Assembly: GCF_902806265.1 (NCBI RefSeq)
Contig: NZ_CADCVZ010000001.1
Span: 62,001-126,000, forward strand
Length of the DNA stretch: 64,000 nucleotides
DNA from: an uncultured Sphingomonas sp.
GTDB taxonomy: Bacteria; Pseudomonadota; Alphaproteobacteria; Sphingomonadales; Sphingomonadaceae
Direction: 5' to 3'
Shown here one piece after another: positions 2,766 through 4,992 of this stretch (within the stretch, counting starts at the first letter, position 1; every line of letters starts with the position of its first letter). The notes under the pieces were generated by a model that was not told where the DNA came from, did no database searches, and worked only from the letters and a program-made list of their open reading frames with translations. A program made the position numbers and the translations under genes.

Positions 2766-3710
2766 TTAGGGTGCGAACCGCTCCGGGTGCGCTTCCGCCA
2801 GCACCACCGCGAAGTCGCCTGCTCGATCGGTCCACTCGGCCAGCGGAGTCCAGCCGCCTGCCAGCAGCAGCAGGCGAGCGCTGCGGGGGCCGTATTTATG
2901 GCTGTTCTCCGTGTGGATGGAGGAGGCGGCGGCCAAGCGGAACAGCTCACCCGCGATGCTGAACTCGACATTGCGGGCCGCGACCAGGTGCATCTCGATG
3001 CGGCTCAGCACGTCGTTCCACCGCGCCTCGTGCCGGAACGCATCGACCGGCACCGTACCGCCGAGCTCGCCGTTGATGCGGTGGAGCAGGTTCAGGTTGA
3101 ACGCCGCTGTCACCCCTTGCCTATCGTCGTAGGCGGCGAGCAGCCGCTCAACCGGCTTGATCCGGTCCATCCCGATCAGCAGCAGCGCCCCCGTGCCGAG
3201 GACCGCACGGAAGTGGCGTAGCAGGTCCGTCGCGCTGGCCGGAATGAAGTTGCCGATGGTCGAGCCCGGGAAAAAGCCCAGGCTTGGCAGCCCCGACGCT
3301 TCCGCCGGAAGAGCGATGGCATCGCTGAAGTTAGCCACTACGGGGTGGAGCGGCAGGCCCGGCAGCTTGCCGGCCAGCTCGGCGGCGCTGGCCTGGAGGT
3401 ACTCGCCGCTGATATCAACGGGCACATAGAGCGCGGGCTGGATCGCCTCGAGCAGCAGCGGCGTCTTGGTCAGCGAGCCCGCGCCGAACTCGACCACCGC
3501 ACGGTTGCTGCCGACCCGCTCGGCGACCTCCGGCATGATCTCCTGGAGCAGCGCCGTTTCGGTGCGCGTCGGATAGTAGGACGGCAGCCGAGTGATGGCG
3601 TCGAACAGCTCGGACCCGCGTTCGTCGTACAGCCAGCGCGCGGGAATGGCGGGCGGCTGCTGCCGCAGTCCGCGCAGTACATCGTCGCGAAACGCCGGAT
3701 CAGGCGTCAC
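2766..3710 (-). CDS. egtD: L-histidine N-alpha-methyltransferase EgtD
   Basis: SAM-dependent enzyme that trimethylates histidine to hercynine, the first step of ergothioneine synthesis. 314 aa, normal for the family. Visible are RWLYDERGSELFDAIT and LPSYYPTRTE at the N-terminus, the SAM loop VEFGAGSLTKT, VPVDISGEYL, PGSTIGNF, and the C-terminal ENSHKYGP substrate-region motif. The start is GTG at 3708-3710 (VTPDPAF), giving an 11-base overlap with egtB. The open frame continues upstream to 4268, but there it is only the wrong frame of egtB. EgtB and EgtD together suffice for the pathway in organisms that use cysteine directly or borrow other steps. Confidence 0.95.
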   Translation of the reverse strand: MTPDPAFRDDVLRGLRQQPPAIPARWLYDERGSELFDAITRLPSYYPTRTETALLQEIMPEVAERVGSNRAVVEFGAGSLTKTPLLLEAIQPALYVPVDISGEYLQASAAELAGKLPGLPLHPVVANFSDAIALPAEASGLPSLGFFPGSTIGNFIPASATDLLRHFRAVLGTGALLLIGMDRIKPVERLLAAYDDRQGVTAAFNLNLLHRINGELGGTVPVDAFRHEARWNDVLSRIEMHLVAARNVEFSIAGELFRLAAASSIHTENSHKYGPRSARLLLLAGGWTPLAEWTDRAGDFAVVLAEAHPERFAP

Positions 3711-4992
3711 GGGCGAGGCGCACGCCGGAGAACTGCCAGCGGGCAGCAGGCGGAAAGAAGTTGCGGTAGCTCGGCCGGCTGTGCCGGCGCGGGGTGGCGC
3801 AGCTGGCACCTCTGAGCACGAATTGGCCGCACATGAACTTGCCGTTGTACTCGCCGACGGTGCCTTCCGCGGATTGGAAGCGGGGGTAGGGCAGAAAAGC
3901 CGACGCGGTCCAGTTCCAGACGTCGCCGAACAAAGCGCCGTCCGGATGAGGCATCGCTGGGCCGGCGCGGTCCAGCTGATTGCCGCCTGCCGGATTGCTC
4001 GACGCCGCCAAGCTCTCCCACTCCGCTTCGGTCGGCAGCCGTGCGCCGGCCCAGCGCGCAAAGGCGTCCGCCTCATAGTAGCTGATGTGCGCCACCGGCG
4101 CGGCCCGGTCGAGTTCGCGGCGTCCGGCGAGGGTAAAGGCGCAGCCGTCCCCGCGCCAGTAGAGCGGGGCGGTGACCTGCTCCCGCTGCACCCAGTCCCA
4201 GCCCTCGCTGAGCCACAGCTGTGCAGTCTGGTAACCGCGATCGGCGATGAACTGCAGCCACTCGCCATTGGTCACCGGCGTTGCGGCTATCTCATGCGGG
4301 TGCAGCAAGGCGTGGTGCCGCGGCCGCTCGCTGTCGAACGCGAAGCCCTCGGCAGGAGCGCCGATCTCGACGATGCCGCCTTGGCTGCAAAGCCACTCGT
4401 CCTTGCGAGGAGCGCCAGCGACGAGGCGACTCAGTTCCCTGCTTGGCGGAGAGGAAGTGGATTGCTTCGTTCTGCTCGCAATGACGGGCATGTACGCCGG
4501 TTCCAGCGGGTTCTCGGCAAGGGTCGCCAGGATGTCGGTCAGCAGCAGCTCCTGATGCTGCTGCTCATGCTGGATGCCAAGCTCGATGAGTTCCAGCGCC
4601 GCCGGCGGCAAGTCCGGAAGTGCGCGGTCCAGCGCCCCGTCCACATGGCTGCGCCAGGCGCGGACCTCGTCCAGGCTGGGCCGGCTGATCATCCCCCGGC
4701 GCGGCCGGGCATGCCGCGGGCCTTCGCCCTCGTAATAGCTGTTGAACAGGAACGGCCAGCGCTCGTCGTGCAGCCGATAGCCGGGCAGGTGATCGCGCAG
4801 CACGAACGTTTCAAGGAACCAGGTGGTGTGCGCCAGGTGCCACTTGGCCGGAGAGGCATCCGGATGCGGTTGGATGGTCGCGTCGGCGTCTGACAGCGGT
4901 CGGGCCAGATCGGCGGTCAGCCGGCGCGTGGCGAACAGCCGCTCGCTGAGTCCCGCGGCGTTCAGTCGGTGCGGGTCGCGCCGGGTTGCCAC
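3700..4992 (-). CDS. egtB: Ergothioneine biosynthesis sulfoxide synthase EgtB, with a repeat-encoded insert
   Basis: Non-haem iron enzyme that joins hercynine to a thiol (gamma-glutamylcysteine or cysteine) to give the sulfoxide precursor of ergothioneine. 430 aa. Residues about 10-155 form the DinB-like domain carrying the iron ligands: H52 in WHLAHTTW and the H-x3-H-x-E motif HEQQHQE (H142, H146). Residues about 200-430 form the FGE-sulfatase domain (GGIVEIG, RLPTEAEWE, GDVWNWT, VLRGAS, RPSYRNF). Residues 170-199 (VIASRTKQ... APRKDE) do not belong to the family and correspond exactly to a palindromic repeat at 4398-4486. The start is GTG at 4990-4992 with an AGGGGGG box upstream, overlapping the adenosyltransferase gene by 31 bases. 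Confidence 0.95.
   Translation of the reverse strand: MATRRDPHRLNAAGLSERLFATRRLTADLARPLSDADATIQPHPDASPAKWHLAHTTWFLETFVLRDHLPGYRLHDERWPFLFNSYYEGEGPRHARPRRGMISRPSLDEVRAWRSHVDGALDRALPDLPPAALELIELGIQHEQQHQELLLTDILATLAENPLEPAYMPVIASRTKQSTSSPPSRELSRLVAGAPRKDEWLCSQGGIVEIGAPAEGFAFDSERPRHHALLHPHEIAATPVTNGEWLQFIADRGYQTAQLWLSEGWDWVQREQVTAPLYWRGDGCAFTLAGRRELDRAAPVAHISYYEADAFARWAGARLPTEAEWESLAASSNPAGGNQLDRAGPAMPHPDGALFGDVWNWTASAFLPYPRFQSAEGTVGEYNGKFMCGQFVLRGASCATPRRHSRPSYRNFFPPAARWQFSGVRLARDA
4398..4486. repeat. Imperfect palindromic repeat inserted in frame in egtB
   Basis: An 89-base element whose ends are inverted copies of each other: the left end begins CGTCCTTGCGAGGAGCG and the right end, read on the other strand, begins CGTCATTGCGAGCAGAACG. 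The inner arms hold related GCGACGAGGCGA and GAACGAAGCAATCC segments. I recognise this as the GTCATTGCGAG...GCAATCC class of short palindromic repeats scattered through alphaproteobacterial genomes, usually between genes. Here it lies in the egtB reading frame and encodes residues 170-199. Confidence 0.85.

Follow-up and report, generated by a model that had tools for sequence, protein, structure and literature searches.

A head-to-head pair of REP-like arms in place of the EgtB interdomain linker, from a repeat family whose spread GIY-YIG nucleases may assist

The linker between the two domains of a sphingomonad EgtB, an enzyme that takes part in making the antioxidant ergothioneine, has been replaced by a head-to-head pair of CGTC-tagged, REP-like arms, and the dispersed family to which this pair belongs may have spread with the help of a GIY-YIG nuclease. 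We hold this combined reading to be, on balance, probable. On this reading the pair inserted between the two domain-coding parts of egtB, the native linker of 15 residues was mostly lost and the repeat took over as linker; insertions survived selection only if they stayed in frame, brought in no stop and left the DinB and FGE domains able to work together. The same linker has taken in such palindromes repeatedly. The gene lies in a 64,000-nucleotide stretch of DNA (the window), whose relevant features are given in Table 1. Below, G000 is the window's own genome, other G-numbers are compared genomes and L-numbers are loci.

Table 1. Position and strand of the egtB repeat, its arms and the surrounding genes and domains in the window
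Feature	Position	Strand	Details
CGTC-tagged palindromic repeat, head-to-head arm pair, degenerate copy	4398..4486	.	Encodes EgtB residues 169/170-199
Repeat arm, N-terminal side of encoded segment	4456..4486	-	Tag CGTC, 5-bp stem ATTGC/GCAAT, tail CCA; read VIASRTKQS
Second repeat arm (CGTCCTTGCGAGGAGCGCCAGCGACGAGGCGA...)	4398..4436	+	Minus-strand reading ...LVAGAPRKDE
egtB	3700..4992	-	430 aa, GTG start as read, no stop; ORF and TIGR03440 (534 bits)
DinB_2 domain of EgtB (residues 21-147)	4552..4932	-	Domain search
FGE-sulfatase domain of EgtB, top-scoring stretch (residues 198-331)	4000..4401	-	Domain search
egtD, adjoining egtB downstream	2766..3716	-	Methyltransf_33 343 bits; TIGR03438 352 bits, cut-off 290.9

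An earlier note on this DNA had claimed that an 89-base palindrome is read in frame within egtB and encodes residues 170-199, between the two domains. Both points hold: the inverted repeat is present, the minus-strand frame runs through it without a stop, and the encoded segment, which may begin one residue earlier, falls between the DinB_2 and FGE-sulfatase domains. The palindrome is a degenerate member of a dispersed repeat, CGTCATTGCGAG...CTCGCAATGACG. Across the window arms and the other copies, the CGTC tag stands at both outer ends, AT at the base of the stem and CCA in the tail; one window arm has CGTCCT in place of CGTCAT, and its CCA is not clear. Two arms of the family fold with a 5-bp ATTGC/GCAAT stem and a long loop. 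As DNA, the egtB copy folds moderately better than its shuffles (z -2.4) and another copy reaches z -6.3, the modest score of the former reflecting its degeneracy. Four of the six reading frames are open in the G000 copy and two to four in seven other copies, which helps account for the translatability of such DNA.

That the palindrome is dispersed was borne out. BLAST within its own genome found seven other places, corresponding to six other copies, and a profile search of 436 kb of that genome found eight, the 436 kb being contigs picked for holding known copies and seven of the eight copies having gone into the profile. Within the window, the profile found no second copy, and a bare 12-mer with up to two mismatches occurs seven times against 10.3 expected, not above chance. 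Head-to-head dimers of the family are dispersed mainly between genes. At the other G000 copies, 16 stop-to-stop ORFs that cross or enter the repeat were tested, and any Pfam domain found in them falls beyond the repeat. Among 20 other copies in G074, 15 have candidate ORFs; 20 of the 21 ORFs were tested, and no reported Pfam domain includes the repeat. The search for further in-gene copies that the earlier note had proposed thus yielded dispersed copies that appear intergenic, and no domain containing the repeat; some copy may lie inside an unrecognised gene or an N-terminal extension. The sister genome G092 also has dispersed copies of the family (L337, L338, L339), although its own egtB linker is native. 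At four intergenic sites (C54:71157, C22:12671, C31:25159 and C15:20823 in G000) the CGTC repeat of G000 faces a different palindrome in G092 (L315, L316, L317, L319) and a shorter gap in G093. Different repeat families seem to share these sites, in a comparison that took in six of eight chosen sites.

Apart from the repeat, egtB is intact, and it evolves under purifying selection. EgtB scores 534.1 bits against TIGR03440, where the curated equivalog cut-off is 360, and has the pair of DinB-like (PF12867) and FGE-like (PF03781) domains. With the linker excluded, the pair of G000 and G092 has a dN/dS of 0.13 (376 codons), compared with 0.10-0.18 in eight further pairs. The frameshift or dead gene that the earlier note had named as evidence against itself is absent. 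Hence the protein looks functional, and it is presumably made and active. The note's description of a mobile-repeat-derived segment in a working enzyme therefore stands as regards a segment in a functional-looking EgtB and fails as regards how it got there, the linker having been replaced rather than cleanly entered. The nearest solved proteins, 8qf6, 6qki and 6o6l, have a shorter, proline-containing stretch where they align over the linker. An AlphaFold prediction with four EgtBs as input gave a pLDDT of 41, too low for use.

The replacement is most readily appreciated from the lengths of the linkers. The earlier note had EgtBs running straight on past the PAY region, a view that the genus does not support: in 66 EgtBs the spacing from PAY to the next aromatic residue is 15 residues in 50, 14 in five and 16 in five, two of these last five carrying half repeats (G074 entered this count as 22; its true length is 31). 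The G000 linker is 32 residues long, and the native sequence has all but vanished from it. The same stretch reads GELPPASRKAAEPLS in G092, the closest relative, whose EgtB is 84% identical and whose contigs are syntenic. A net gain of 17 residues (51 nt) from an 89-nt element means that most of the native linker has gone, and alignment to sphingomonad EgtBs does not give the clean insertion of 29-31 residues that had been anticipated. Where relatives have no repeat, their linker differs and does not show the same 30 residues, as the proposed repeat origin of the segment would have it. Elsewhere, palindromes that distinguish G000 from G092 look additive (84 nt versus none, 97 versus 3 and 112 versus 11), and so the loss of linker in egtB requires a second step; the native linker was either removed by the insertion itself or trimmed later.

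A survey of the genus found an EgtB match in 68 of 71 genomes, and 66 genes were read, the set leaving out G075 and also G011, which is split across contig ends. A profile built from seven intergenic G000 copies, with the egtB copies excluded, matched five of the 66 egtB genes at E <0.001 (G074, G000, G032, G030 and G085), every match at the linker, with E from 2.7e-14 to 4.7e-4 (4.5e-12 for G000). The next match, in G079, lies outside the linker (E 0.63). By eye, the linker of G088 resembles a collapsed copy; this half element has no profile match at E 1. Full arm pairs are present in G000, G032, G074 and G085, giving linkers of 30-34 residues, and G030 and G088 have roughly half elements of 16 residues, near the native 15. 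Five linkers share one reading frame (RHCE / LLRxARND, altered in G085 and G088), and the first G000 arm uses another.

On an EgtB tree calculated with the linker left out, the six repeat rows need six changes, all forced by well-supported branches. Native-type linkers are kept by near relatives such as G092, G080, G003, G005 and G084. The six repeats in the genus, one of them recognised by eye, represent five to six separate gains. A single ancestral insertion followed by losses was rejected, since the nearest relatives retain native-type linkers. In a pattern scan with at least 120 stretches listed, the egtB-linker repeat occurred in L140 and L161 only, matching the known G030 and G032. Strict-pattern copies are more numerous in genomes with a repeat in EgtB (median 18.5, n=6) than in the others (1.5, n=60; p 0.011, kinship ignored).

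Outside the genus, different palindromes occupy the linker in six of 40 genes (G201, G098, G253, G235, G196 and G220, by eye), which is no rate because 33 of the 40 were picked for extra length; all 40 were taken from among the matches listed in an order survey. A single-genus set of 30 genes gave G463 and, already counted, G098. The palindromes of other genera were recognised by eye together with the longest inverted match. In total, 13 EgtB linkers have palindromes, six in the genus and seven in other genera, several of them by eye, so that the egtB copy of the window does not stand alone. Eighteen linkers were then compared with 18 genomes. Among the matches listed, the G074, G201 and G253 linkers recur in their own genomes, the G253/G235-type linker recurs in G196 and the G463-type linker in G463, G220 and G462; again among the matches listed, the G098 and G235 linkers have no further own-genome copies and five native control linkers find their own egtB only. 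On the sequence record, the interdomain linker of EgtB has repeatedly taken in such palindromes.

This recurrence could have been brought about by a preference for the egtB linker as a target site, or by selection of the repeat peptide as something useful to EgtB. The 13 linkers with palindromes agree with such an account, as do the similar lengths of the two-arm linkers, with half elements close to native length, and the lack of Pfam-domain overlap at the 20 other G074 copies or in the 16 G000 candidate ORFs. We nonetheless consider it improbable, because the linkers draw on at least four families of palindrome sequence and on two reading frames: no single peptide has been kept, and a tolerant linker is the simplest common factor. 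The linker is probably tolerant rather than targeted. That the repeat results from faulty assembly or binning, or that the gene is dead, is scarcely credible. The assembly does consist of 64 contigs (97% complete, 1.3% contamination), but the repeat sits inside a 135-kb contig that is syntenic with G092 around egtB, none of the EgtBs with the repeat has a reported stop and dN/dS is low.

The REP-like pair that replaced the egtB linker has close counterparts in the literature. In the available text of Di Nocera et al. 2013 (PMC3733652), CGTC-tagged REPs have a CGTC tag, AT at the base of the stem, a CCA tail and head-to-head dimers; they are mostly alphaproteobacterial, without a nearby or dedicated transposase, and mostly intergenic, sometimes lying in genes where dimers or groups encode 20-30 amino acids. 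The egtB family shares the tag, stem base, tail, dimers and mainly intergenic setting, as well as the occasional place in a gene, the alphaproteobacterial host and the lack of a transposase close by. It differs in its 5-bp stem and long loop, the published stem and loop being 8-9 bp and 4-5 nt (PMC3733652, same portion); we therefore call it REP-like and do not file it in one of the four CGTC families. A further difference is the GIY-YIG gene between arms described below, which the same portion of PMC3733652 does not mention for CGTC REPs.

The likeness to Rickettsia palindromic elements (RPEs) drawn in the earlier note is apt, since RPE-4 and RPE-6 are counted among the CGTC-tagged REPs in that text, on which the tie rests. 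RPE-1, RPE-4 and RPE-6 likewise sit within reading frames without apparent loss of the gene product, and the available part of PMC2229807 reports a guanylate kinase that contains an RPE and is both translated and active. Unlike the RPE cases, the EgtB linker was replaced, and the same homologous site was hit in many species. Precedent for different REPs at one gene position comes from recB of X. campestris and X. oryzae, in which REPs occupy about the same site (PMC3733652, same portion). That case concerns two species, whereas EgtB has had five to six separate gains in one genus as well as those in other genera.

The repeats are associated with small GIY-YIG genes. On the egtB contig of G092, a 371-nt unit (L335 1142-1513) holds a GIY-YIG ORF flanked on both sides by inverted arms of the CCCCGGCG type, and the syntenic point in G000 is empty. 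One possible imperfect 6-bp target-site duplication is too little to claim. The small ORF matches PF01541 (GIY-YIG) at E 9e-10, no NCBIfam entry matches the GIY-YIG protein, and the nearest solved relative of the G074 protein is 1zg2 (E 0.002). Among the matches listed, its relatives take up 59 places, spread over 32 of the 71 genus genomes. A GIY-YIG gene, with any type of arm, is present in all six genomes with a repeat in EgtB and in 23 of 60 others (p 0.005). Arms were scored as the best inverted match between 130-nt flanks, with a threshold of 15 fixed after the first scores had been seen. Scores of at least 15 were obtained at 42 of the 59 places (26/31 and 16/28), at none of 400 random positions (maximum 13) and at one of 490 control genes; this last score of 28 equals that of the L344 GIY-YIG gene, so the lone positive control is apparently one of the GIY-YIG genes. 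Among the 17 places below threshold, some are visibly flanked and some are not, and one is cut by a contig end.

Arm type largely follows GIY-YIG clade. Labels assigned by eye, with seven rows left without a group, need eight changes on the GIY-YIG tree against 17.3 when shuffled, and none of 200 shuffles was as low; the groups found in more than one place on the tree are ATTCCCGC (three changes) and ATTGCGAG (two). When eight GIY-YIG arms of G000 and G092 were compared with the DNA read from their own genomes, one had no match, two matched a single place and the rest three to 10 places. The host genome has two GIY-YIG genes (L378, L344), both with arm families other than that of egtB, and among the places found in this genome there is no GIY-YIG gene with egtB-family arms. 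Repeats of the egtB family enclose GIY-YIG genes in G074, G088 and G022, and in G036 at a score of 13, only these among the 59 places. In G088 (L377) the gene has a whole head-to-head pair, not a single arm, to either side, and in G022, G036 and G074 whole pairs stand on at least one side, so a simple origin of the pairs by loss of the gene from between two arms fits poorly. Repeat-rich genomes, among them G066, G065 and G005, have GIY-YIG genes, none with the egtB arm family.

We propose that GIY-YIG nucleases are the missing mobilisers of CGTC-type repeats. The family would most likely spread via a small GIY-YIG endonuclease encoded between inverted arms. Recognition of the arms by this nuclease, followed by cutting of the DNA, would set off copying or insertion, and gene-less pairs would be MITE-like followers. 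Adjoining a gene is not proof of mobilisation by it, and GIY-YIG genes could instead settle beside or inside repeats as passengers, the repeats being neutral places in which to land or sites that are cut. Insertion sequences target REPs (PMC1525189, in the available text), whole pairs flank the gene in the egtB family, and in many genomes this family persists with no GIY-YIG gene of matching arms. The passenger view is opposed by the inverted arms at the two ends and by the broad agreement of arm type with GIY-YIG clade, as cognate pairs would show, by a full unit that one sister has and the other lacks, and by the greater number of egtB-family repeats in genomes with any GIY-YIG gene (median 10 versus 0, p 4e-6, kinship ignored). 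We regard passengers as unlikely, though as the most serious competitor. Movement by a RAYT-type (Y1, IS200/IS605-like) tyrosine transposase, as proposed for GTAG REPs, with an incidental GIY-YIG link, seems very unlikely. It would suit the REP-like head-to-head architecture, and GTAG REPs are often near RAYT genes in the available text of PMC3733652. That text reports no transposase association for CGTC repeats, however, and Y1_Tnp matches are absent from the host genome and from all six genomes with a repeat in EgtB, occurring in three of 71 genus genomes; the same search matches five of 14 named control genomes.

A nuclease-assisted spread of the family would place it beside REPtrons, in which a RAYT gene is flanked by REPs: both have a gene for a small DNA-cutting enzyme amid repeats, and a repeat type tied to enzyme lineage. 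The domain is GIY-YIG here rather than HUH/Y1, and most arm families here have one inverted arm per side in a unit of a few hundred nucleotides. The fullest form of the proposal is that CGTC-type repeats are non-autonomous followers of a new minimal mobile element, a single GIY-YIG endonuclease gene (product ~95 aa) between inverted arms, each nuclease lineage having its own arm sequence, and that they have repeatedly supplied the EgtB interdomain linker; we put this forward tentatively, with somewhat more doubt than belief. Among the matches listed in a search of mainly open literature, none joins GIY-YIG genes with these repeats: 'GIY-YIG' and 'extragenic palindrom' co-occur in one paper only, in unrelated places, the available portion of a 2025 REP survey (PMC12306157) has no mention of GIY, and titles gave nothing relevant on EgtB with palindromic or insertion elements. 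Repeats inside genes are already known, and the egtB copy alone is a further case of in-gene REPs or RPEs. What is new is the recurrence at one interdomain linker, together with the proposed GIY-YIG partnership of the repeat system.

In a second EgtB loop, before FAFD, extra residues (PSEGPWTGLATG and PGGASTKPGTG) occur in L068 (G092) and L022 (G026), with no repeat motif recognised in them. The GIY-YIG genes at L416 (G086) and L417 (G030) have a third type of palindrome on their flanks (TCCTGAGTAGG ... CGAAGGACG), which by eye is like the one in the EgtB linkers of G220 and G463. Outside the genus, all three GIY-YIG genes found in the 120 pattern-scan loci listed have arms, a sample biased by its selection for the CGTC type; two of the three units, in a gammaproteobacterial and a Mucilaginibacter record, are ATTGCGAG-type. 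Of 12 plasmid-collection records, picked for variety from 35 with a match, seven have arms around the GIY-YIG gene, the scores below 15 being those of Neisseria gonorrhoeae (13), Spirosoma (10), Planktothrix (9), Photobacterium (8) and Rhizobium sp. K1/93 (7). On the Azospirillum lipoferum 4B plasmid AZO_p3 (L420), a repeat-flanked GIY-YIG gene lies between sufB and sufC.
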